A stretch of 64,000 nucleotides of DNA from Antedon mediterranea (Eukaryota; Echinodermata; Crinoidea; Comatulida; Antedonidae): NCBI RefSeq assembly GCF_964355755.1, contig NC_092676.1, positions 436,501 to 500,500 on the forward strand, written 5' to 3'. Of this stretch, positions 16,462-53,886 are shown in pieces. A program made the translations under genes and the position numbers. Each line of letters opens with the position of its first letter. Position 1 is the first letter of the stretch. The notes below the pieces were generated by a model, which was given only the letters and a program-made list of their open reading frames with translations, did not search any database and had not been told where the DNA came from.

Positions 16462-19400
16462 ATGTACAAAATGCAGGTAGGTAGTAATATTTGGTAATCA
16501 ATGAATTGTATTTTTCGTTTATCGGTATGGCAGCTACTAGGCTAGCTTATATTTATACGTAGGGTAATAAAGTCTGGCAATTTGAAACAGTTTTGTGTGC
16601 GTTTTTAAACCCGTCCCATATCGTACGTACGGTCCTCTCTACTTTCTAGGCCCGGATAGGGTTTATCATAGCAAAGGTGAAACAGGTATGTACAGTAGTC
16701 CAGTGTTGTAAGAAGGAAGTAGGCCAATCCTAGGCCTACTTGTTGAGTTATTTTTCTCCCAGGGGGTTTGGGTCCAAATGCTGAAATGAAACTGGAAAAC
16801 GTTCTTCTCTTAATTAACAAAAGGCAGTAACATTTATCAATATATTTGAATACATGTAACATTTAATATTTAATATATTATTTTCTAAAAGTTAATACAA
16901 TAATAATATTATAATTAATATCAATAACATTCATTAATTAATTATTAATAACAAGATGATATGAATATTTTACTTGAAAAATGAAAGTTATACCTTTTTT
17001 ATTAAAAAAAAAATTTTTTCTAAATTTAAAATTAATTTGGAAAACAAATCTAGGCTTAATGACCTAATTGTTAATATTGTTATTTTTAATGAAGAATTTA
17101 AAGATATTCAATTCAATCATTTTATTTCGTCTTTCTTTCATCACCTTAGTTGCTAGTATCCGTGGTGGTTAGAGGAAATAAATCAATTGCAAACATCAAA
17201 CAATCTTGCATATTTTTTGTTTTTTCACAGCCAAGTTCCAGAATGATAATGTAAATAGTTAGCAATGCAATGTCAGAACCACTAGGCCAATCAAACGGAA
17301 TGAATTGGAGTGCCAGCCATTTACTTCTTGACAATGGTAACACAGAAGAACTCCTACTTCCCATCAAGGCTACAGAAAGGATTAAAGTATACTAGAATCG
17401 TTATTTTTTAGTATAAATTACTGCGATTTATCTGTATTGAAATCATATAACTTTCACATACCACTGGCAGTTGTGTATACTGGGGTATAAAAGTTGTACA
17501 CACACTGTAACATTTCTGAATAAATGTTTGTAAAGCTCTGTCTACACTATCAAACTTTATGTGAAAAAAAATGTTACATGGTGATGAAGTCATATCACTA
17601 CCATATTTGGGTATATCACACTAGTTTGATAGTATAGACTGAGATTTATTATCTGTATTGCATTGCAACCATATATATAAGTATAACTGTCTCATACCAC
17701 TGGTAGTTGTGTATATATATTGGGGTATAACAGTTGTAAGCATACTGTAAAATTGAAGATAACATAAGATTAAAAAAATAGGATTAAAAAAAAAAATTAT
17801 TTTGGTTAATATATTGCATCTATATTAATTGATTTTCAGTACACATGTGTGGCCTTGTCAAAACGTTTTATTGCATTTGGTGCTACCTCTGGTGGACTTT
17901 ATATTTTTCAAAGAGATACTCACAAATACTTACAAGTTATAGTAAACAAGGTTAGTTGTTTCATAATAATAAAATTGTGCTCTTATTTACTGTTCTTGTG
18001 TACACTTGGCCATCATTGACAGATACATTATAGTGTCAGATGATACATTATAGTATCAGGTGATACATTATAGTATCAGGTGACTTTAATGCTGGTGTTT
18101 ATACCATGCTATTTGAATGCCAAAAAACCAGCTTTATTTCCTTATGTTTCATCAATATTAATATATAATGTTATTGATGATGTCATAATTCTACCAATGT
18201 ATTTGTTTCATTCAGGTTAAATTTGAAACACTCTCAAATATTGTAGTGATATGATATCATCATGTCCATACCTATATGGGCACATATGTTTTTGTCACAT
18301 AAAATTTGATAGTGTAAACAGAGCTTAGTAATAATTCTTGTTTTATAGGAGGGCTCAGTAACCCATGTGAAGTTTGCACCAGATGATAATCTTGTTGGCT
18401 TATCTACCAAGTAAGTTAATTATTTCCTAACTGATTATATTTTCTTTCAAACTATCGTTTCTTGTTGAGTGAACCTTGTAGAAGTGTGTTAACAAAATGT
18501 AAGTAAGTTAGTAGTGTGTGCATGAATGAACCCAACTTTTTTTAAAGTTATACACAACTTTAACCCCAATCATGGAGAAATAAGTTAATTTTCACTAATA
18601 TCCAAACTCCCTATGTTGAATTGGGACACATCATTGAAACAATGCAACAATTACTTTATCATACCAAGCTATGCCGTTACACAGTTAATATCAATTACTT
18701 TATCATACCAAGCTATGCCGTTACACAGTTAATATCAATTACTTTATCATACCAAGCTATGCCGTTACACAGTTAATATCAATTACTTTATCATACCAAG
18801 CTATGCCGTTACACAGTTAATATCAATTACTTTATCATACCAAGCTATGCCGTTACACAGTTAATATCAATTACTTTATCATACCAAGCTATGCCGTTAC
18901 ACAGTTAATATCAATTACTTTATCATACCAAGCTATGCCGTTACACAGTTAATATCAATTACTTTATCATACCAAGCTATGCCGTTACACAGTTAATATC
19001 AAGATTATTAACTGTAGAGTATAATAAGAAAATAATAAGAACAACTTTAAAACTTTTATAATAACAATATTTATTCAACATCAATAGTTTACAGACAGTT
19101 TACATAGTTTATGGTGAAGACACACAGAAGCCAAAGTGACTTGTCTTTGTAGTCCGTAAGCATAAAACATAGACGGATGCATTACAATTACAAAAAAATG
19201 ACATTTTGAGACAGAAAAAGAAAAAATACAAAGTGAGATAAAGCAAAATAGTTTCAACTCCATGATGCAGTAGCAATAGTAGCTAGCAACATAATTATTA
19301 TTAGTATCCTCTTTGTTTTTTAGAACTACCGAATGATGTTTGAAAGTTTGTGTGCATATAGATATTAATAGTCTTTTTGTTAAAAGTATAATGTCTATAT

Positions 19401-29598: not shown

Positions 29599-30741
29599 TG
29601 AGGTATAGTTAGTGTTGGCATAAAAATTGGGATAATTCATATCATTTAAAAGCTGTATGACTAGCTAATTGAACAAACAACTTAAACAAGAATTGAAGTA
29701 ATGGATACATAATGCATCTGGTATATTTTAGATGTAGACATTTGAATATACAGTAATACTCAGCTTTGAAATAATACTGAAGGAATGCAATCTTATTACT
29801 AAAGCTCTGTCTACACTATCAAACTTTCTGTAACCCAAAAAATTGTGATGTGCCCATATATGGACATGATGATGTCATATCACTACCATATTTGGGCACT
29901 TTTTTTGTTACATAAAGTTTGATGATGTAGACAGAGCTTTATACTACTGGCATATATAAAAACGCATTGGTAATGTAAATGTGAGAGGCTACATAAAAGT
30001 TACTTATCACTATGGACGTATATTAAAAATGTGTAAATTAAAAACTTGAAAATCGTTGACAATCACTTAAATTTAGACTTAAATTTAGCAATCAAAGTAA
30101 GTGCAATACCAACATTCATTTCAGCATTAAAGTGAAAAAGACAATGGCTTTTTTGTAAGTAATTTTTTATAAGCATAATTAGGTTTTATTGAGAAGATCT
30201 TCCACGAACGCATCATATTTAATAATGACAATGCTGTGAGTATCACTGGCTGGATCTCAATGGAAATACAAATAAAAAAACTATTTAATTAACAATAAAA
30301 AGCTCAATCAAAACGATAATGTACAGCCATATATTGAAAGAAATATAAATCATGTATGAGGGCCACAATTGAAAGAAAACTAATTTGATTAATTTATATA
30401 TTGACACTCTGTAATATATTTGCACAAGACAATTGTGATTTGATCACTGAATAAATGTTAATGTACTGTATTGTTTTTATGTGTAGAGAGATTATATTTA
30501 CAATAAATTTATACAGTTTATTATCAAAGTTGTGTTTATACTGTTTTGGAATATTAATGTGTGCGAGTTTATAACATTTAACTGGTCGAAAATTACGAAC
30601 ATAAGAAAACAAGTTCCAGTTATTTTTATGTAACCTAAAACACCCCTTTCAGACATGGAATATTCTAAAAAGGGGGCGTGACGTTTAAAGTTCACAAAGA
30701 ATATTGTGGAAATAGGATTTTGGTGGAAAAGTATCTAAAAA
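29599..30741. other. HPS5-CPTP intergenic region
   Basis: Holds one MITE (29801-29940) and AT-rich sequence. No coding region seen; the CPTP promoter must lie in the last few hundred bases. Confidence 0.6.
29801..29940. mobile_element. MITE copy (AAGCTCTG family)
   Basis: Both termini intact and flanked by TA on both sides, which supports a TA target duplication for the family. Confidence 0.9.
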
Positions 30742-31627
30742 ATGGCTTCAAAAGAAGGATTTAGCTTAGAAGTTGTAGCAGAAGAATTCGAGAAATGTAA
30801 ATCAGCCGAAAACGAAATAATTCTAGAGCACTACATAAGAGGTTACGAAGAGTTAACGAGGTAAAATTAGTTGTAGACTAGCTATACACATGCCTAGCTA
30901 GTTAGGCTTAATTTAATGATTGTTTAAGAAGGGAAAAGGCAGACAAAGACTCCCTCTGTGAGGATGGCAAAGTCGTTTCGTCTCAATCGATATACTATAA
31001 ATAGTGTATATAAATTACGATCTAACATCTGAAATTAGTATTGAAATCAATTACAATTTATTAGTTTTTTTTTCATTAATTTTCTTTTTATATTAAATTT
31101 TTAGAGTTTTTGAACACCTTGGCACCATATTCTCATTCATCACATCAGATCTGAAAGATAAGATAAGAATTTTGAAAGAACACCAAAAGGCAACGTCAGA
31201 CCACTTTAAGTCTGTTCACACTATGGTTAAGTTTGAACTAGACAATGAATTAACAATCGGAAAAAATTCCAGTGGGCTTTTATCTGGTTGCAGGACACTA
31301 CTACGACTACACAGAGCTCTTCTTTTTATAAGTTCTTTCCTCAAGGAACTTATTGAAAGCAACGAAAATGATAGCGTACCAAAGATGGCGTCCAACGTCT
31401 ATGCAAGTACGATCGCTAATTATCACACTTGGCTTGTACGAAATACTGCGTACTTAGCAATGCGTACTCTACCAAACAAGAAGACGCTACAGGGCAGACT
31501 CTGTACGTCACCCACTTCCGAAAAGACGGCAGAGGAAATCGTCGGCGAATGCATTAAACAAATGATGCCAGTGTATGATATAGTGCAAGCTTTTTATTCT
31601 GAACGTAGCCTACTAGAATTACCTTAA
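30742..31627 (+). CDS. CPTP: Ceramide-1-phosphate transfer protein (GLTP fold)
   Basis: Cytosolic carrier that moves ceramide-1-phosphate between membranes. Two exons, 30742-30860 and 31105-31627, 213 residues (human 214). The single GLTP domain fills the protein. Head-group residues line up with human: Asp55 and Lys59 in FSFITSDLKDK, Arg103 and Arg107 in SGCRTLLRLHRALLF, His147 in YHTWLVRN. The C terminus YSERSLLELP matches the human YAEHSLLDLP. The start is the first ATG and precedes GFSLEVV, equivalent to human GFNLKVV. AATAAA lies at 31839-31844. Confidence 0.95.
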
Positions 31628-31844: not shown

Positions 31845-34162
31845 CTATTTTTTATCAAAAATTAAGTGCAATAATAATTAAAGTATATCTGAAATCATGA
31901 CACTGTGCCGGTATAATAAATGCTTTTGATTTGCAAGTCATTTGGGTTTTTTTTCCATTTCTGATGTTAACTATTTTAAGAAGAAGAACCACATTCTAAA
32001 ATATAGAAAGACAAATTCTATTCAATAAGATGATAAATAGCAGCAAGTCATTGATTTGCACGGCGGTCGTGTGGTCAATTTATAAATAGAGCGATTCGCA
32101 CGTACGCGATCACATACCCCGGAAGTGTATAATAAACCATTGAACCACATCCACGTGTGACGTGTTGAGTGTTTGTTCGGGACTTTTCTCGTGTTGTATC
32201 GGGTAATTGTAGTGGTAAGTTTTTAGAATATATATTTTTTTGCTAGTAAACATTAACAAAATTATTAAATTGTTGGGTAAATTTAGTTAAGGCAGGCATT
32301 TCTTCGCAATCCGATCTAGGGCTAGATAGTAGTTAGTAGGCCTAGGCATATTTAATGCCCAATACTAATTAGTATTATTAAAAAAAAAGTCTCGGAGGAT
32401 GAATGATATTGGCGGCTGGCTTGATGATAGATGGATCAAACAAGGCTTGGATAGAGGGAAGATTAAGAAAAAAGCTGAAGCTGTTTAATAAAAATGTACA
32501 AGACAAAATGGCGTTTTATTAATAATAACATTAACAGAAATAATTAAATGTAATGAAATAAAAAATCGTTATAAAACAATAAAATCACAGGGTAGGTAAG
32601 GTCTACTACTAAACCTGATCATTTAAATTATAAATTTGATCCTCATATTATTTATTTTTTTTCTTCACCTTTATTTGAAAAATATTTAGTTAATTAATGT
32701 AAACATTTTTGAATACTCACTAGTCCTATTATTGGCATTTCTTGATAACTTATATTTATACAACTGAACAATCTAGGTTTTCACACATTTAAATTACAAA
32801 TAGTATATTGACTTTTGCTTTGAATTTAAGAATGTATAGTATTTTAAAATACTATAAGTAGTAATCAAATGATTATGTAACAGTTTGAAAAGTGACTAAA
32901 TAATTTAATGATAATTTTTCCCTATTTCAGAAAGATATCAGTCTGTCATCATACTGTATAATTACTATTGAGAAGAGAGTGCACAGTGGTATTTTAGACA
33001 AGAATTAAATACAAAGGCCAGAACTGATGGACAATTATATTTTAATAGTAATAATAATTTATATTTTTGATTCTTGAAAAGGAGCAGTATCCTATGGGAT
33101 TACAAATAAAATCACTATTTTCACACACCTCATTGTTCACATATATAGACTTTAAAGTGAAAGGAAATAACCAGAATTCAGTTATCAGTACTGTTGTTTA
33201 GGCCTATTGGCTTCTTTTGTAATACAAGAAATCAAAATAATTACATAATTTTTCTTGTATTTAATTAAGAAGGCTAAAACCATACATTGGTAATTTATTT
33301 ATTGAGTGTATTTAATTATTCCATAGCTTTAATACTGTATAAACAACTTTGAAGTTAGATTTTTCAGTCTTTTTATTGCATTTTAATCCTGTCCGTAATA
33401 TTGAAAGTTGAGCTAATAAAAGTAGGTTGTCCCACAAAAGAACAACTTATGATTATGAATTTTTTAAATTAATATTTAATACTTTTACTTTTTTGAAATA
33501 AAAAAAAAATGTAACAATTGTTTTTTGTATGTTTGTATCTAGATGTATGTAGGCCTACAGTATATTACAGTTGTGGCAGATCGTAGTAAAATTCCCCTTG
33601 CAATGAAATAAATTTGTAAATTGTAGGCCTAAAGCACACAAAATAGAAAGAGAGGGTCCGAACAGGGGAAAGAACATCCCCCTGCCCCATTAATTTTTTT
33701 TAAAAAAATTGAAAAGACAGTTTTGGACAATATATCAGCAATTATTACAATTCATCTCCAAAAAATGCTTCTCTCGCACATAAACTGTGCCATCATCCCA
33801 GTAAGCCTAGGCCAAAGGCGGCCGACCTTGGGCGTGAACTGCGTAGCATCGCGCTGCGCCCCGCGACACTATTTATAACTATGCCTCAACCGACTGCCTA
33901 CAAAATTCGTCCTCCATACAGTCAGTGTTTATTCTGTAGCCGTTTGAGGTTGGACAGTGATATACGCATATGTAAGTGTAATATCAAATGGAGTAAATTT
34001 ATATAATCGAATTTTATATACTGTAGATGTTCTTTCATTTTGACGCGAAAGATAAAATAAAGTCGTACTGTTTATCGCGTAGATGTAAACCCTATTTGTT
34101 TACATTGATTTGGTGGCGTGCCGCATTGCCTACTGGGTAATCCGCTTGCCGTCGCCGAGAGA
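31845..34162. other. CPTP-TRDMT1 interval with a probable non-coding transcript
   Basis: Apart from the transcript candidate at 32100-33440, AT-rich sequence without open frames. Sequence just upstream of 34163 is GC-richer and includes the TRDMT1 promoter. Confidence 0.5.
32100..33440 (+). ncRNA. Candidate two-exon non-coding transcript
   Basis: A promoter-like block has an ETS site (CCGGAAGTG, 32119-32127) and CACGTG/ACGTG words near 32153. Exon 1 would end at 32214 before GGTAAGT; exon 2 would begin at 32931 after CCCTATTTCAG and reach AATAAA at 33415-33420. No exon 1 ATG and only tiny frames in exon 2, so it is probably non-coding. The intron contains a TGATGAT/CTGA pair (32422-32478) that could be a C/D snoRNA, weakly. 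Confidence 0.35.
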
Positions 34163-34300
34163 ATGGCTGCCCATCATGTAATTATCTTTTTTCGAGCGTC
34201 AGTTCCATATCTTGCGCCACTACGTGGCGCTATACGATCTTTGCGTACGACCACGTGTGGATGCAGTCAACCGGAAAGAAACGTACGATTCAAAACAAAA
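34163..34300 (+). other. In-frame upstream extension of TRDMT1
   Basis: An ATG at 34163 is in frame with the TRDMT1 start at 34301 with no stop between. The 46-residue extension has many Arg and only one acidic residue (RASVPYLAPLRGAIRSLRTT), like a mitochondrial presequence. It may equally be 5' UTR that happens to be open. Confidence 0.35.
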
Positions 34301-37300
34301 ATGGTGGAACAAGAATTTCGTGTCGTTGAGTTCTACAGTGGAATTGGTGGTATGCATTTTGCATTAAAAGGTAAATTTTGGGTTTATTAGTTTCTATAGT
34401 ATTAGATTAGTCCATCGGAAGAATGCGTACTCGATCATAAGACTAGCAAGGTAACAGGTAGTGTATGTAGAAGTTAGGCCTAGCTAGCTAGGCTACGCGG
34501 TTTCTGGTGTTTGTTTTGAATATGTAGCCCAGCAGGGCCAGAGCAGAGCAGGCTGTAGAAGTAGTACGTACTGTGAGGCTAGAGTACATAGTTAACCATG
34601 AACATGTAAGGCAAGTAATCGAGGCGTCGGTGATTAATTTTAGCAATTTCTTTATCACTTAAAAATACTAGATTAATTCAACATCCACCCACCAGCCAGG
34701 CTGATTGCGCTTCCTCCTTCCATATTAAAATACGCCGTGGCTAAAGATACGGTACCGTATCCTAACTTCCGTTTACTAAAGATACGGTAAAATTGCATTA
34801 CGTCATAATCAGCCAATGGGTGCTGGTACGTGTGTGACGTCATCGTATAAGGACTTTGGATTTTTTTCACATCGCGTCTGTAGAGAATGCCTATCGGCGG
34901 CGCCAGGCTGCATGGATGTGTGCGCTTATGATTCTGTGACTCAGTCAGCCTCGGGGCTAGACCTAGTAATGTTGAATCCAGAATCGTCGATGCTGTAGTA
35001 ATAGATCAAGATCATGTGGTTGGTGGACATAAAGCGTTTAAATCATGCACTCAATCTCAAATATTATTTCATTATACAACATTAAACACTTACACTTGCG
35101 TCTAGTTCATTCGTCCATAGGCCTATAGTTACTATGAGGGTTTTATTTTTATTACAAATTGCCTATTTAGGCCTATATTTTTTAATAAACTTTGTTTACA
35201 GATGGTGACCATAAACAAAAAGCAAATGCGGACAATAAAGGGGCCCTCAAATACTATGATTTAGACAATAGGCCTAGCCCCAGGTCTGAGTCACAGAACT
35301 CAGCGCACACATGCAGCTGGCCCCAGCCTGGCAAACAAACTCATATACCGAGGCTATATAGCATGGTTATAGTACGTAGTAGGCCTCTTTTGAAACGGTA
35401 AATTTCTGTATTCTAGAATTAAAATCAACATATTTTAGCCTATCAATAATAACAGACGTAGGCCTAGGCTACATTTAGTTTTGTCACACGACGGGGATAA
35501 TAGCGATAAATGAAGCATAATAAAGAAAATGTTAAGCCGCCGGTTGATCACTGTTTTCGCAATATGAAAAAAAATCCCAAGTCCTTATACGATGATGTCA
35601 CACACGTACAGCACCCCATTGGCTGACTATGACGTAATGCAATTTTACCGTACCTTTAGCAAACGGAAGTTCGGATACGGTACCGTATCTTTAGCCACAA
35701 CGATTAAAATAAAACAAACTATTAGTGTTTTTATTTTTCAGAATGTGGAATAAATGCAACTGTTGTCGCTGCACTTGATATTAACACCGTTGCCAATCAA
35801 GTCTATCAACACAATTTTCCTTTAACCAAAATATTTCAAAGAAATATTGAAGTATGTACCGTATATAAAAAAAAATGCTCTGACATAATTAATGTATGTT
35901 CACATCAAATTAAATCGAATAAACATTTATAAATACAGTATTTATGTTCTCCTTTCCTATTTACCTGTAAAGTACAAAATTATTAATTTTTTCTCTTTCT
36001 CATTAAATAAGAATCAGAAAAAAAGTATTTATATTAAGTATGTTATGACCATTATTAAATTGATTTAAAAAAATGATTTATTCATGGAGGAACACATAAC
36101 CTCAAATGTCTCAAGATCAAGTTTCTACAAGTATGTGTGATGGCTGTTTTTCTAATCTAGATAAAAAGTGTAGGAAAGTTGTTAAATAGTTAATCAAGAA
36201 GTTAAGTCAAGTTAAGTTAGTTAAGTTAAGTCAAGTTAAGTTAGTTAAGTTAAGTTAAGTCAAGTTATATCATTTAAGGTATATATCATCAAAGCATGTG
36301 TATAACATTATTGTTTGTTTTAATTAAATTCTCTTTTTTCCACATTGAAGTCAATTTCACTGAAGGAGTTTCAAGCATTAAATGCTGATGTATTTTTGAT
36401 GAGTCCGCCATGTCAACCATTTACAAGGTGCAATATCTCTTTTGTTTGTTTTATTCTTTACTCACATTAAACATTCATAGATTCATTTTAATTCATTGTA
36501 ATTTTGTATGAAAGGCTAATAATAGTTGATAAATCTTTTTAAAGCAATAGCTTTAATTATCCTGTTTAAACTCAGTAAATGTGTATTTTTTTTTCAGGAG
36601 TGGTAAACAAGGGGATAATGAAGACCCAAGGACAAAGAGTTTCCTTTATATATTAAACCTTTTTGGAAGGTAAAAACATATTAAAGTTATTCATGTGAGA
36701 CATTGAATGATTGACACATTATCATGCAGAAATTAAAGACTATTTTCACAAATTGCATACAGTTTGATTTTATTACAAATTTCATATTTTGTTCTTGATT
36801 AACTACTTGCAACAATTTCCTACACTTTTTATCTAGATTAGAAAAACAGCCATCACACATACTTGTAGAAAATGTAAAAGGTTTTGAAACTTCAGAAACA
36901 AGGTATGTTAATGAGTGATAGTGATAGTATAGGTCGCCATTGAGTGATTGACCAGGCAAATGAAGGAATTATTAGAAAATTAGTTAGATTGACCACCGAC
37001 AACTTGCTAACTTTTATAATAGAACTTGGTACTATTTTATATATTAAACAATGAAAACTAATTTTATGAAAAAATTAAAATTATTGACTGGTATTAAAAA
37101 CTTTTTCTTTCAGAAACCTTCTTTTACAAACATTATCAGCTTGCAACTATGTTTATAAGGTTTGATACATTATTACATTCATTAGTTGAATTAACTTTAA
37201 AATGTTCTGTGATGTGATACAAACGGGATATATCATTATTCTATCTGCCATGCCAATTTGCTTCATATTTTCCAGGAATTTCTACTATCTCCTTATCATC

Positions 37301-38657
37301 TTGGTATTCCAAACCAGCGACTTCGATATTTTCTAGTGGCAAAACAACGTCCCCACCAATTTGTTTCTGATTATTTGTTAGAAAATGGACATTTATTGGA
37401 CAATTACCTCATAGAGAACTCAGCTAGTAGTAATGATGAACTTAAGGAAAGAAGGAATGAATTGGCCGCTGAAGGATCTGAAGGAGCCTCAGAAAAACAT
37501 GCTTTAAAAGTCCCAAAGGCAGCATCACTTAGCCAACAAAAAGACCAATTCTCAAATTATTTGCCTAATAGGACTATAAAAATGTATTTAGAAGAGTTAC
37601 CAGACATTGTAACTGAAGAACATAAGATTGATGCGAAGGTGTTGATTAGATATGGCAAGGTAATGGACATAGTAACTGAGGAATGTGAAAGAACCATGTG
37701 TTTCACGAAAGCGTAAGTAAAATCTAGAATTGTTAACAACTATTTCAGCATGTTTCATTATTATTAATTTGTGTGTACTTTTTGTGTTGGTTGACCTCTA
37801 TGTTCACTGTAAGAGGAAAAGAGTCTTAGAAAAATAAGAAAATAAAAGAATTACAAATATGGTGTTGAAATCATTAAATTTAATAATTTTATTTTCAGGT
37901 ATTTTCATTACATTGAAGGAACTGGTTCAGTCTTGCAAATGAACAAAACATTACAGGTAAGCTACACTCATAAAACACAATATAGATTTTGTAATGGAAT
38001 GGTTTTTTATTCCCATGCTAATACAGTTCATTAATTTATTTACAGAAATCAGAAGTGTTTCAGAGTTTAGAATCAACTGATGATGACTTAGATAAATGTG
38101 AAATTTTGAAGAATTTAAACGTCCGATACTTTACATCAAAAGAAATAGCAAACTTACACCACCTACCGCCAGATTTTTGTGAGTAACTCAGAGTTGTTTT
38201 AATATATTTATCTGGTCATATTTCGCCACGTTTCTATAGTTGGAATCAGATTTTATTGAAATAAAAGTGAGTTATAACTATTGATATCCTACCTTTTGTA
38301 CTAAACCATTAGTTGAATTAAGTTGTGTCTATACACTATCAAACTAGTTTGACAAAAAAAAGTGTGATGTACCCAAATTTGGTATGCCCAAATATGGTAG
38401 TGATATGACATCATCATGTCCATATATCGGCACATCACATTTTTTTGCCACATAAAGTTTGATAGACAGCGCTTCTGTAGCACAATCATCATAATCACCA
38501 CATACTATGTGATGTTCTGTAAGTTTGTTTAAAGTTTGTTCTTATTTTTTCCGTAGCATTCCCAAAGGAAATAACCAGGAAGCAACAGTATAAGTTGCTA
38601 GGCAACAGTTTGAATAGTCATGTGGTATCAGTCTTGTTGAGGTTTATGTTTTCTTAG
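34301..38657 (+). CDS. TRDMT1: tRNA cytosine-5 methyltransferase DNMT2
   Basis: Methylates C38 of tRNA-Asp and some other tRNAs with SAM. Exons: 34301-34370, 35742-35851, 36351-36427, 36598-36669, 36837-36902, 37114-37159, 37276-37712, 37899-37956, 38046-38178, 38557-38657; 389 residues (human 391). Motif I EFYSGIGGMHFALK, SAM-site ALDINTVAN, catalytic motif IV MSPPCQPFTR with the active Cys, motif VI LVENVKGFE, motif VIII QRLRYFLVAK, the DNMT2 signature CFTKAYFHYIEGTGS, and motif IX/X region with YKLLGNSLNSHVV. The start at 34301 gives the usual length; an upstream in-frame ATG exists at 34163. Intron 1 holds a TIR element, intron 2 an inverted copy of the exon 5 start. AATAAA lies at 38786-38791. 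Confidence 0.95.
34733..35702. mobile_element. TIR element with 9-bp target duplication, TRDMT1 intron 1
   Basis: 970 bp between perfect 9-bp direct repeats ATTAAAATA (34724-34732 and 35703-35711). Terminal inverted repeats of about 135 bp begin GTGGCTAAAGATACGGTACC and include TGACGTCATCGTATAAGGAC. No transposase frame inside. The 9-bp duplication favours a Mutator-like (MULE) non-autonomous element. Confidence 0.88.
36122..36199 (-). repeat. Inverted copy of TRDMT1 exon 5 start and acceptor
   Basis: Reverse complement matches 36794-36871 over about 78 bp with few differences. The copied segment includes the polypyrimidine tract, the acceptor ATCTAG and the first 35 bases of exon 5 (with AAAACAGCCATCACACATAC). 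It lies in intron 2, upstream of the original. Confidence 0.9.
36196..36268 (+). repeat. Simple repeat, GTTAA/GTCAA type
   Basis: Irregular runs of AAGTTAAGTTAGTTAAGTCA. Confidence 0.9.
38322..38474. mobile_element. MITE copy (AAGCTCTG family)
   Basis: In TRDMT1 last intron; right terminus shortened (GATAGACAGCGCTT). Confidence 0.85.
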
Positions 38658-39149
38658 AAGTAGCTACAGTGCCTTGAGAGAGAAATTGGTGTGGTCACAA
38701 GAATCACGAAAAATCAGCAGCAAAAAATTGTCTGAAGAAGATAGTAATGAAAAGAATGAAAGAGATACTGTAGTAAAGAATTTAAAATAAAAAGATGTCA
38801 AGGGAAGACAATACATTCTAGTATTATAAATAAACATTAATAATTATTATTATCAATGAAAACCGTGTTTATACAATATTCAATCCAGTTACTCAACAAC
38901 AATATTCAATTTAGTATTACAATAATCAATGGTAGACATAACTAAAACTATTAACAGAATAAAAATATACAGAATGTTTAATAAATTATGTACAGTATAC
39001 GTTTTGTGTATTTTCATGTTTATTATCGTACATCGTAATCGTCTGAAGTATGTAATCCTCCTCCTATACAGGTACGGTACTGTATTTATTTTGTATAATT
39101 ATGTGTTCAGTAAAAAAACTAACTTGCGCCCTCTATAGTTGGTACTAAT

Positions 39150-40650: not shown

Positions 40651-40651
40651 A

Positions 40652-43050
40652 ACCTTCCCATGGTTTGAGTTGATAGGTGTTGAGTTCCTTACTCTAATGC
40701 TAGAGCATAATTGGTTATCCGCAACGAAGTTGCAGGATAACCTCTTGTGATTGTACGAAATCATTCTGTATGATTTTTGTGTAACGCTTTTCTCTAAAAC
40801 TCGCAAACATAACATTTCGGTAACTATCTTAACATATTGACATTTACGTAACGTCGTCAAGCGAAGCTTTTCATGACGTTTACAATTGCGCAACGTGACT
40901 TACGCGCGATTTAACGATTTTGTCGTATTTAACATAGCTCGACAACCAAATAACATTTCAACTTGAAACTTTGCAAAAGTTTAATTTATATCATGCGCTA
41001 ACTTTCTGTTGAAAAAAAATTCCGTGTTTTACACAAAGTTACGCGCGCACGCGCATTTAAAATTTCAAAATGCGCAAAATTAATTTCTAATCAACTTTCT
41101 ACGCGTTTCATGTCGTTTTAAGCATGTCAAAAATTCCCACGCGTGCGCACAATTTTACGTGTGCGGTGCGCACGTAGCATTGAAAACGTATTTTTTTTTG
41201 CGTGATTTATGTTTTTCCAGCCTTTTCTAGTAATTTTACCAAATTTTAAACAATTTCGACTTAAAGATACGTCATACGAGCACGTCGAATTGAACAATTT
41301 GCGCGCGTTTTTTATGAAAAGGTTAATAAATTCGTTTAAAATATGCCTTTTTTTAAACAGTCGTAATTTCTAAACTAGACGGTCAACTTTTTGTGGATGA
41401 TATATTCTGGAAGTAGATGAGTTGTAGATATCGGATCAGGTAATAATATGGCTAACCGGACATTGTGACGTCATCGTATGGCCACGCGAATATAAAATTT
41501 AGGATTTTTGTATCTTTCGTCATAGCTCATCACATTGAATAGAGCGCATCTCCACTTATTCGTTTTCCATTTTCACCCAGATTTTGATATTGTCTAGGTC
41601 AATCAACTATCTTTCGCATGAGTTAAAAATATTTTAATTTTTTTGACGTCATCATGCCTAAAAATTTAAATCACGTGTGGCATCAATTTCATCTTTACAG
41701 TAAATTTTAATCTGTTATAGCTCGTAAGAATAAAATTTGATAATCACGATTAAAACTTTTTCTGGAAGCTATTGGATTGTAGATACGAAATTATGTAAAA
41801 ATGTTGCCAATCGGATGTTGTGACGTCATCATATGGTCAGTTAAATAAAAAAGGTCGTATTTTCATCTTTTGCGTCATAATTCATTACATTTAAACGAGC
41901 GCGCATCAATATTTCACGTATTCAAATTTCTTCTACACGCTAATACGTTGTTGCTGAGATAATTTCCTTTCGGAATTGCTACCTTCGCGTTTCATTTTAA
42001 AACCGTCAACATGTTAAAAATTGCAATAAATAGCGGGTCCCGTAATTTCACCTATTCTATGTATGTCACTGTATGTGATATGGATACAGATTATACTGTG
42101 TATACTATATATGAATTTAAATAATAAAATTCAGCAATAACAACATATCATATTCTTCAGTTCAGGTCATAATGCCAACGTGAACACTTCCTTTTGTCCT
42201 CAACCTATCCCCTTAATGTTAATGTTGCACCACTTGCGCGGCGGATAACCAAACTCGTCAAAGTGACGAGTTACATGTCTAGTATTAAAGTATAGTAACT
42301 ATCCAACCTTGCCATGGTTTGAGTTGATAGGTGTTGAGTTCCTTACTCTAATGCTAGAGCATAATATTAAAGTACAGTAACTATCCAACCTTGCCATGGT
42401 TTGAGTTGATAGGTGTTGAGTTCCTTACTCTAATGCTAGAGCATAATATTAAAGTACAGTAACTATCCAACCTTGCCATGGTTTGAGTTGATAGGTGTTG
42501 AGTTCCTTACTCTAATGCTAGAGCATAATATTAAAGTATAGTAACTATCCAACCTTGCCATGGTTTGAGTTGATAGGTGTTGAGTTCCTTACTCTAATGC
42601 TAGAGCATAATATTAAAGTATAGTAACTATCCAACCTTGCCATGGTTTGAGTTGATAGGTGTTGAGTTCCTTACTCTAATGCTAGAGCATAATATTAAAG
42701 TATAGTAACTATCCAACCTTGCCATGGTTTGAGTTGATAGGTGTTGAGTTCCTTACTCTAATGCTAGAGCATAATATTAAAGTACAGTAACTATCCAACC
42801 TTGCCATGGTTTGAGTTGATAGGTGTTGAGTTCCTTACTCTAATGCTAGAGCATAATATTAAAGTACAGTAACTATCCAACCTTGCCATGGTTTGAGTTG
42901 ATAGGTGTTGAGTTCCTTACTCTAATGCTAGAGCATAATATTAAAGTATAGTAACTATCCAACCTTGCCATGGTTTGAGTTGATAGGTGTTGAGTTCCTT
43001 ACTCTAATGCTAGAGCATAATACAGTAACTATCCAATGTTTCCATGGGGA
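40652..43050 (+). repeat. 82-bp minisatellite, about 9 units plus outlying partial units
   Basis: Nine near-identical 82-bp units at 42284-43021 containing CCATGGTTTGAGTTGATAGG, a degenerate unit after them, and a partial unit at 40652-40710. The outlying part is separated from the array by the Helitron-like element. Confidence 0.93.
40711..42282 (+). mobile_element. Helitron-like element (Helentron/HINE type)
   Basis: 1572 bp inserted between A and T of an 82-bp repeat unit, without target duplication; neighbouring units show the empty site GCATAATATTAAAG. The 5' end is TTGGTTATCCGC; its complement GCGGATAACCAA lies just before the 3' hairpin AACTCGTCAAAGTGACGAGT, which is followed by TACATGTCTAG. 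This matches Helitron ends (subterminal inverted repeat, 3' hairpin, terminal CTAG). No Rep/helicase coding seen, so it is non-autonomous. Confidence 0.75.
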
Positions 43051-44470: not shown

Positions 44471-44472
44471 GA

Positions 44473-44711
44473 ACAATACTGTAGACCTGCGGTAGGCTTA
44501 GAACAACCACCTTGCTCTTAACAATACTGTAGACCTGCGGTAGGCTTAGAACAACCACCTTGCTCTTAACAATACTGTAGACCTGCGGTAGGCTTAGAAC
44601 ACCACCTTGCTCTTAACAATACTGTAGACCTGCGGTAGGCTTAGAACACCACCTTGCTCTTAACAATACTGTAGACCTGCAGTAGGCTTAGAGCAACCAC
44701 CTTGCTCTAAA
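44473..44711 (+). repeat. 47-48 bp minisatellite, 5 units
   Basis: Units with AACAATACTGTAGACCTGCG and CTTAGAACAACCACCTTGCT; some units lack one base. Confidence 0.95.
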
Positions 44712-46695
44712 CTAAATTGTCTGTACATTGTTACAGCATGCCACGCCTTGATACTTAATGGACAGGAATAGGCTTTAAAAATGCCACGCCCTTTAGCATT
44801 CTACTGTATTGCCGAAGGCTTTAATTATTTTATGTCTGTTGGGTGTTCTGTCAGCCACACCCCTTCACTGTTTTACATTTTAATTAATAACATACTGTAA
44901 CAGTAGAGATACTGATATTATAATAATGGTCCTATAAAATTAAAAATATTGCTATTTATTACTCACACATTCACTGGCTCTGAGAAATACACTATAAACA
45001 GAGTATAAACATTATGCTGATAGCATTTACAAGCAAGACTTTATTTCCAATGGTTGAACTTTGCTCAATAGATGTCAATTCAATCATTCATTAACATGTG
45101 CATTAATGTAAAATTAATTTTGAATGTACAGTACATGCAGTGTGTGCTCCTACTATACATTACTACAGGTATAGTTTGTCCAAAATATTAATATTCAAAG
45201 TGTAATAATAATAATAATAGTTCATTCTTATCTTATATCACACACTGTATACTGTAAGCAAGTTCTTAATGTGCTGCACATTATTACCCGCTAAAAATGA
45301 TTATATTTATTTCACTGGTCTCCAAAAGGAATAGTTCAGGAAAATAACTTGGTTCTTTATTTGAACCCTATGGAACTCCTTGGCTATGGACTTGAATCCA
45401 TTTGTTAAAACAACCTGCGTGCATTTTCAAAGATTTAGTTTGTGATAAAATAAATCTATAGTATCTATGGTTTTTTTTTCTTGGTGAAACTTTATACTAT
45501 ATAGTATTACTATCCTTACTTTTCCTTCTTTATTGCCAGTGACAGATTATAATTTACTGCAAGCCTTTAGTAATTTTATTTATATTTATGAGCCTATTGT
45601 AATCCCATGAGCAATAGTAGCATTCAATACCTGAAACCTGAATAACAACATTATTATTAAATGTTTTTCCCCTTAATATTTGAAATGTTTTTTCTCGTTT
45701 GCCTGCTGGGATTGGCTGCTAATCTGTCATTCATCATCTACATGCAAACATAAATTATTTTAAATTGGATATTTTAGCATGCTTGCCTTCACCTTTAAAG
45801 CTAAAATTTACTTAATAGTAATCGTAAAGCTCTGTACGCTCTCAGTCATATCACTACCATATTTAGCCATATCGCTACCATATTTAGGCACATCACACTT
45901 TTTTTGTCACATAAACGTTGATAGTGTAGACAGAGCTGTACAGTATAAAAGAATAGAATCATTATAATGGGGTAAGGGTACAAAATGGTATGCCAACCTA
46001 CGACTAGTAGAGAAGTACTGTGAAAAATAGTGATTTATAAATAAACTCCCCCGGAAGTTTCTTTAGTCATTTCTATTTTAAAGACCTAGTGGAAAGGCGA
46101 CTTTAAAATTGATAAACTTTTAAGATGGGTCAAAGACTTTGAAGGTGGGTAAGGTTGCACCTCCTCCGAACCCACATCTGCCTAGTACAGTTTCTAAACT
46201 CATGACAGTTGATATTGCTGATAATTATATAATTTTTTAGATCAGAATGTCATTTATGGTAATTATTACATTACATTATGCAGTTTACATTTGCTTTCAT
46301 TTCAAACTGAATCCATACTCATAAGTGAATGCTTAAAAATGACTTACATTACAACAAATGTGAATATATCCTTAAGCAATACTTAGTGTCCTAAAAATCT
46401 GAACTGGATTTCTGAATTAATAGATCATTTAATATTATAGAAAATGCAGTATGAATTGTAATTATGTAGGTGGCAAGGAGGCTATGAATATAAACTTACC
46501 TTTCTGGGTGAATTTATTGATCATCCTCTTTACCATGTGACTACTTTGCTATTCACGATATTGCAAGGGTGATAATTATATCTTGAGTTAACTTACGGTT
46601 AATCGCTTCGAAATTTTGTGTTCAGATTTTTGTCGTTGATAAATTTAACAACTGTTTTAGCATTTATTTTAAATGTAGAGAATTTATATAGTTAA
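44712..46695. other. AT-rich region with one MITE
   Basis: Apart from the MITE at 45826-45938, nothing recognised. Confidence 0.45.
45826..45938. mobile_element. MITE copy (AAGCTCTG family)
   Basis: Left arm diverged (AAGCTCTGTACGCTCTC), right arm intact; TA on the left flank. Confidence 0.8.
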
Positions 46696-48605: not shown

Positions 48606-48900
48606 GTATGTTAATTATTTGTGTGCGTTTTATTTATTGATCTGGCATGACTCACCGGCAGCTTACTATATGAATGAGTATTCATAGTTCTTGCACAGAC
48701 CTATGGTTTATGTACCCATTAACCTGCTAATAAATAATATTGCATTCGTAGTGTAACAAGTGATAAGATACAGAATACAAAAGAGTTTCATCTCATAACA
48801 TTTTATTGAATTTGATCTGACGTTTTTGTGCTGTTACTGTCTGTAAAATTGATACAACAGAGTATTTTATTGGGATGGGTATTTGAAAGGAAAAATAGGA

Positions 48901-49372
48901 TAAAAGAGTATGATGTACTTATAAAGAGTATGATGTACTTATAAAGAGTATGATGTACTTATAAAGAGTATGATGTACATATAAAGAGTATGATGTACTT
49001 ATAAAAGAGTATGATGTACTTATAAAGAGTATGATGTACTTATAAAGAGTATGATGTACTTATAAAGAGTATGATGTACTTATAAAGAGTATGATGTACT
49101 TATAAAAGAGTATGATATACTTATAAAAGAGTATGATGTACTTATAAAGAGTATGATGTACTTATAAAGAGTATGATGTACTTATAAAGAGTATGATGTA
49201 CTTATAAAAGGGTATGATGTACTTATAAAGAGTATGATGTACTTATAAAGAGTATGATGTACTTATAAAGAGTATGATGTACTTATAAAAGAGTATGATG
49301 TACTTATAAAAGAGTATGATGTACTTGTAAAAGAGTATGATGTACTTGTAAAGAGTATGATGTACTTATAAA
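48901..49372 (+). repeat. 19-20 bp minisatellite, about 24 units
   Basis: Units of AAAGAGTATGATGTACTTAT, some with one extra A. Confidence 0.95.
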
Positions 49373-49517
49373 ACTGTGGCACTATTTGTTCATTCAGTGC
49401 TATTGTGAATTAGAGCTGCTGTCCTGTTTTAAAGGTAAGTTCATATTGAAGCTATTCATCATGGATCTGTTGCTGAATCTTTACTAAATGTCTACGCATT
49501 TTGTTGTCACATTGTGT

Positions 49518-52450: not shown

Positions 52451-52852
52451 CAGTAAACTTTACTTGTACACCATTGAATAGCATGATTGAGGGTGAGTCC
52501 CACTCAGCAGCAGCCATCAGTAAACTTTACTTGTACACCATTGAATAGCATGATTGAGGGTGAGTCCCACTCAGCAGCAGCCATCAGTAAACTTTACTTG
52601 TACACCATTGAATAGCATGATTGAGGGTGAGTCCCAGTCAGCAGCAGCCATCAGTAAACTTTACTTGTACACCATTGAATAGCATGATTGAGGGTGAGTC
52701 CCACTCAGCAGCAGCCATCAGTAAACTTTACTTGTACACCATTGAATAGCATGATTGAGGGTGAGTCCCACTCAGCAGCAGCCATCAGTAAACTTTACTT
52801 GTACACCATTGAATAGCATGATTGAGGGTGAGTCCCACTCAGCAGCAGCCAT
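52451..52852 (+). repeat. 67-bp minisatellite, 6 units
   Basis: Units with CAGTAAACTTTACTTGTACA and GGGTGAGTCCCACTCAGCAG, exact 67-bp period. Confidence 0.95.
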
Positions 52853-53886
52853 CAAGCTTGTTTACGTGATCACTCAACAATAGTTCAGTTCTTTACATCT
52901 TGTTCTGTGACCTCTATTATTGTTTATAGCTGTGTATTACTTCCTATTGTCATTACAGATTTACCTGTGTGTATACTGTTTAAACACAGGATGTAAAAAT
53001 ACAGCTCTTTTTTCATTAACAATACATTTTTTTGCTGTTATTGTTACAGGATATTTCTTCCTCTCTTAAGCTCCTTATTATTTCTTCCCATTGTCATAAA
53101 CAATTTAGCTGAGTACTCTACTTAACCACAGGATGATGCAAAGTTTATTTTTATTACTAAATATGTTCACTGGTAATAACTGGTAAAGCATTTTCCATTA
53201 AAAAAAAAGAAGACATTTATTAGATTTTTGGAAGTCAATTTTTTATAAAGTTTACACATAAAAGAAAGAAACACAGACAAATATTATTGGGTTTTATTAT
53301 GTAGTTATCCTTATTTTGATCCTAGAAAATATCAGCCAGTACTGTTTGGTGGACCAGTGCTATGAATGTGGTTCTATTTTAGACCTTTACGACTCCCCAG
53401 TCACTGCATCATATTATTCAATTACCTCTGAAATATGTACATCATACTGTGTGTAAGATCTGGTCAGTTTCATAAATATACATTTTTCTCTCATGCTTTT
53501 TCCTTTTTATTTTAGTGAAACATAAATTAGATCTGCACCTTTAATTAAAAATATGATTCTAGAAATCTAGGAGGCTAGTGAAGGGATTAAAGGTATTCAT
53601 CTAGATTCAAATATTGTGTTCTAAAATCTAATAAAAATACTGTAGAAATCTGTAGCTTATTATTCACTAACCTCCCTCCGAAAACTTGTAATTTACACTC
53701 ATTCCTTGAGGGAACAGCTCGATTTTTGTGTAAAAAGCATACCATTGGAGAATAGAGGTCACATGTTCATTAGGGATGATCTTAACAATTCAATTGTTCA
53801 TGTTTTTTAGTATTCCATTAATAAACGTTGCTAAACACTACCATATTTAAAGTGGATGAATTAAACCAGCATCCACTGTTGACATA
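52853..53886. other. AT-rich region without recognised content
   Basis: Only a good acceptor-like site at 53515 stands out. Confidence 0.4.

Follow-up and report, generated by a model that had tools for sequence, protein, structure and literature searches.

An inverted copy of the intron 4/exon 5 border within intron 2 of TRDMT1, probably of recent origin and predicted to pair with the exon 5 splice acceptor

The DNA analysed in this study, a stretch of 64 kb from Antedon mediterranea (hereafter the window), carries on its forward strand an orthologue of the TRDMT1/DNMT2 gene, within which part of an exon border occurs a second time in inverted orientation. The features on which the analysis is based are as follows:

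34301-38660, plus strand: TRDMT1/DNMT2 orthologue, 10 exons, 390 amino acids, from gene model and homology
34301-34370, 35742-35851, 36351-36427, 36598-36669 and 36837-36902, plus strand: TRDMT1 exons 1 to 5, gene model
37114-37159, 37276-37712, 37899-37956, 38046-38182 and 38558-38660, plus strand: TRDMT1 exons 6 to 10, gene model
34737-35698, no strand assigned: high-copy repeat element in intron 1 with inverted ends of about 140 bp (arms 34737-34876 and 35558-35698, 92% identical)
36122-36200, minus strand: intron 2 segment repeating the intron 4/exon 5 border as its reverse complement (the inverted copy)
36188-36278, plus strand: (AAGTT)n-type tandem array detected with Tandem Repeats Finder, whose first bases overlap the far end of the inverted copy
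36351-36669, plus strand: exon 3 (77 nt, with the PPCQP motif), intron 3 and exon 4 (72 nt), all within the loop that the arms enclose
36792-36871, plus strand: donor arm, made up of the final 45 nt of intron 4 (with the acceptor AG at 36835-36836) and the opening 35 nt of exon 5
36837-36902, plus strand: in-frame exon 5 of 66 nt, LEKQPSHILVENVKGFETSETR, holding the ENV motif

The encoded protein finds its best matches in the human DNMT2 structures 9hgm and 1g55 (E-values of 2.9e-102 and 3.3e-101), is spanned from residue 6 to residue 385 by the Pfam C5-methyltransferase domain (DNA_methylase, PF00145, E-value 1.2e-37) and contains both the SPPCQPFTR and the ENVKG motifs. On these comparisons it is closest to DNMT2, and not to bacterial or DNA methyltransferases, and the gene identity and the intron and exon assignment given in a preliminary description of this DNA are thus borne out by the gene model, in which the exon 9/10 junction carries an ambiguity of a few bases. 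The gene is intact over all 10 exons and is therefore not decaying. The ENV motif is catalytic in C5-methyltransferases. Because exon 5 measures 66 nt, its skipping would keep the frame and delete LEKQPSHILVENVKGFETSETR together with the ENV motif, yielding an in-frame protein without a catalytic motif, while exons 3 and 4 add up to 149 nt, so that the frame would be broken if both were skipped. A search of positions 34000-39000 against Rfam matched no known structured RNA, and nothing directly relevant to the inverted copy was found in the literature on TRDMT1 splicing.

As for the surroundings, open frames at 30739-31627 resemble a gene with a glycolipid-transfer-protein domain (translation judged by eye). 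A tandem array of nine copies of an 82-bp unit, 99% alike, occupies 42283-43022, and a lone 61-bp piece of the same unit (98%) lies at 40651-40711. Near-perfect minisatellite arrays are also found at 11-565, 18648-19002, 44472-44712, 48900-49373 and 52451-52854, and young tandem repeats seem to abound in these 64 kb.

The inverted copy of the intron 4/exon 5 border that had been reported in intron 2 is real. Local alignment of the full arms (36122-36200 with 36792-36871) gives 77 matching columns out of 81, and the core, 36122-36177 against 36816-36871, consists of 56 bp with 100% complementarity. The location first described was correct; its inner limits, 36199 and 36794, were one or two bases off, the alignment placing them at 36200 and 36792. 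All three differences between the arms (a 1-nt insertion at 36178, a 2-nt deletion and a mismatch at 36186) are held by the outer 25 columns. The loop between the arms measures 591 nt (36201-36791) and contains exons 3 and 4, as originally proposed, so that complementary sequence sits in both introns flanking these exons, namely the intron 2 arm on one side and 45 nt of intron 4 on the other. Within these 45 nt of the donor arm lie the pyrimidine tract, the acceptor AG and, probably, the branch region. Since the coding part of the donor arm aligns with human DNMT2, the exon side is the ancestral one and the intron 2 segment is the copy. In a search of the 354-Mb assembly (18 contigs, C1-C11 each longer than 20 Mb), each arm recovers its partner with E-values of 6.7e-27 and 4.4e-27, which excludes chance. 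One might argue that the intron 2 copy stems from a chimeric inverted read, since inverted chimeras are a known artefact of libraries. Yet the copy is short and interior, it stands three events away from its source when a chimera formed on the same molecule is not expected to differ, and the locus lies within a contig of 30.5 Mb; we regard an assembly or library artefact as scarcely credible.

The search of the whole assembly revealed no third genomic place for the arm pair, and the weak extra matches on C2 and C11 mainly cover the AAGTT-array part of the query and not the copied exon border. For comparison, other local inverted pairs were taken from the window (those at 34737 and 53884) and from a 190-kb sample elsewhere in the genome made of nineteen readable 10-kb pieces, a twentieth consisting of N throughout (L023, L022, L013, L017 and L031); the copy-number check covered sample pairs of at least 86% identity outside the tandem array of L026. 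All seven proved to be high-copy repeats with at least 40 scored matches each, and the TRDMT1 pair is the sole single-copy one among the inverted pairs checked, a comparison from which no genomic rate can be derived because the window is not a random draw. The element in intron 1, one of these seven, has at least 40 scored copies and 492 candidates genome-wide; about 680 bases separate its ends, and several of its genomic copies have both ends similarly spaced. In L026, positions 1-2888 hold a large foldback structure, in which a tandem array is succeeded by a stretch of its own repeat in the opposite orientation. A transposon inverted pair, a foldback element or a dispersed repeat is ruled out as the source of the TRDMT1 arms, which are present at only two genomic places. 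That the pair is found only here, while all seven other checked pairs are high-copy, therefore identifies it as a single-copy local inverted duplication.

How did the copy arise? The copy holds intron 4 sequence and was therefore templated by DNA and not by mRNA, which rules out the insertion of a processed transcript. The best-fitting origin, and judging from the sequence the most likely one, is replication template switching or templated insertion: some 79 bases from the intron 4/exon 5 border would have been written in reverse into intron 2, either by a replication template switch or by polymerase-templated insertion at a break, beside the AAGTT tandem array. The arrangement of one single-copy donor and one reverse-complement copy, 591 nt apart, is that expected from a template switch. 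A single such event can yield a hairpin with a perfect stem (PMC8794818), and the events described in hominids make single inverted repeats with copied lengths of up to 128 nt and a median of 12 nt (PMC7954356). Against this origin, a 79-nt copy lies some 600 bases from its source, when published short events are typically much shorter. Similarity between the tail of the donor and the AAGTT array may have favoured the switch, or the tail may have served as the seed from which the array expanded; 44 of 2000 shuffled tails matched the array equally well. Nothing bearing directly on the TRDMT1 case was found in the literature on inverted exon duplications.

Judged by its sequence divergence, the copy is recent. 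The position of the differences deserves some comment in this respect, since the probability that all three fall at one end of the arm is about 0.03 for that end and about 0.06 for either end. This clustering hints at a history more complex than one clean event. It could also be taken as a sign that the hairpin is under selection, the intron 2 copy being kept to control the level of active TRDMT1 through skipping of exon 5 to give an in-frame, catalytically dead protein, through a circular RNA of exons 3 and 4 or through ADAR editing of the acceptor adenosine in the manner of GRIA2. The perfectly paired core spans the acceptor and the start of exon 5, its 56 bp are free of differences and all three fall in the 25 columns next to it, the in-frame exon 5 bears the ENV motif, and the genome encodes an ADAR with double-stranded RNA-binding domains. 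Nevertheless, three clustered differences are weak evidence for selection and would be expected just as well from a recent event of which one edge was repaired untidily, and recent origin accounts equally for the low divergence. We consequently think it improbable that the hairpin is maintained as a regulator. Instead, the copy is probably a recent, near-neutral mutation that created a strong RNA hairpin.

The hairpin was evaluated by folding the pre-mRNA. Until intron 2 has been removed, the copy could pair with the newly transcribed acceptor of exon 5, and in the RNAfold prediction for 35700-37200, 73 of the 78 arm bases pair with the partner arm. The mean unpaired probability of the exon 5 acceptor region is 0.007 in this fold, versus 0.48 when the fold starts at exon 3 and intron 2 is thus missing. 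When all acceptors of the gene were folded with 800 nt upstream and 40 nt downstream, the value was 0.001 for exon 5 and between 0.35 and 0.57 for the eight other TRDMT1 acceptors; scrambling the copy (ten shuffles) brought that of exon 5 to 0.50. The arm duplex is therefore predicted to dominate the fold, with a near-complete occlusion that is specific to the exon 5 acceptor, these folds being equilibrium predictions in which kinetics, helicases, bound proteins and co-transcriptional splicing lie outside the model. The possible duplex over the acceptor and the adjoining 35 nt of exon 5, which had been put forward from inspection of the sequence, finds backing in both the gene model and the folding.

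Pairing between an exon and an intron, as in the duplexes edited by ADAR, is likewise present in the predicted fold. An ADAR whose deaminase domain is divided between two exons is encoded in the genome: a 507-amino-acid open frame on the minus strand of L007 (1501-3024) carries its two dsRNA-binding domains, followed by half of the deaminase, the other half of which is in L008. Further A_deamin matches are found on C3, C7 and C8. The acceptor adenosine at 36835 lies inside the predicted duplex in a UAG context. This is a context favoured by ADARs.

What could the hairpin do to the transcript? By analogy with published systems, exon 5 skipping, circles of exons 3 and 4 and A-to-I editing are all plausible, both the existence and the size of an effect being inferred. 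In C. elegans, reverse-complementary matches, including one of 13 nt, promote exon skipping as well as back-splicing (PMC8330042), and intronic inverted Alus push an exon toward partial skipping (PMC2533698). A large effect is argued against by the fact that TRDMT1 is intact even though intron 1 carries an inverted pair of a common repeat, of 131-140 bp. Likely at most a minor fraction of transcripts would have exon 5 skipped, exons 3 and 4 circularised or adenosines edited, and normal splicing would prevail, owing to the removal of intron 2 or to proteins that keep the RNA open; the effect on RNA processing is most likely at most modest. A step further, the template-switch copy might have no measurable effect on RNA at all, intron 2 being spliced first or RNA-binding proteins parting the arms. 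The integrity of all 10 exons and the tolerance of the intron 1 pair, which causes no visible harm to the gene, agree with such an inert mutation; on the other side, the occlusion is predicted to be almost total and to concern the exon 5 acceptor alone, and shorter complementary stretches do change splicing in C. elegans (PMC8330042). We consider complete inertness unlikely. At the other extreme would be a cis RNA switch established in one step from a single template-switch event, in which pairing hides the exon 5 acceptor and a set share of the transcripts, adjusted by ADAR editing or helicases, gives catalytically dead in-frame TRDMT1, a reading that we hold to be very unlikely. Taken as a whole, the account that we favour, and think likely, is that of a recent copy made by template switching or templated insertion that gives rise to an RNA hairpin with at most a minor effect on RNA.

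The TRDMT1 copy offers a clean natural test, since one mutation has placed a 56-bp perfect complement of an acceptor 600 bases upstream of it, in the gene of a conserved enzyme, with an ordinary acceptor and an in-frame target exon. If splicing turns out to be normal, this would limit the weight to be given to strong predicted structures in living cells. Should exon 5 instead be skipped or circles form, a single replication error would have led to a new splicing outcome without any transposon.

The locus can be set beside several known systems. As in the short-range template switches of great apes (PMC7954356) and those that generate RNA hairpins (PMC8794818), nearby sequence was apparently copied once in reverse to give a perfect inverted repeat, whereas the TRDMT1 copy, with 79 nt over some 600 bases, is longer and probably farther from its source than is typical. 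As in the circRNA system of C. elegans zip-2 (PMC8330042), complementary stretches flank exons in TRDMT1, here exons 3 and 4, and could join the back-splice sites; in TRDMT1 the downstream arm additionally covers the next acceptor and 35 nt of coding sequence, and the circle is hypothetical. The inverted Alus of RABL5 (PMC2533698) lie close to an exon with several hundred bases of pre-mRNA between them, as do the TRDMT1 arms, but the latter are not a transposon and one of them is the exon border itself. Finally, GRIA2 has an intronic editing-complementary sequence (PMC7045468), and in TRDMT1 too an exon border could pair with an intronic complement to form an ADAR substrate, although the TRDMT1 duplex is longer and fully paired, its intronic arm lies upstream and two introns away, and its editing is hypothetical.
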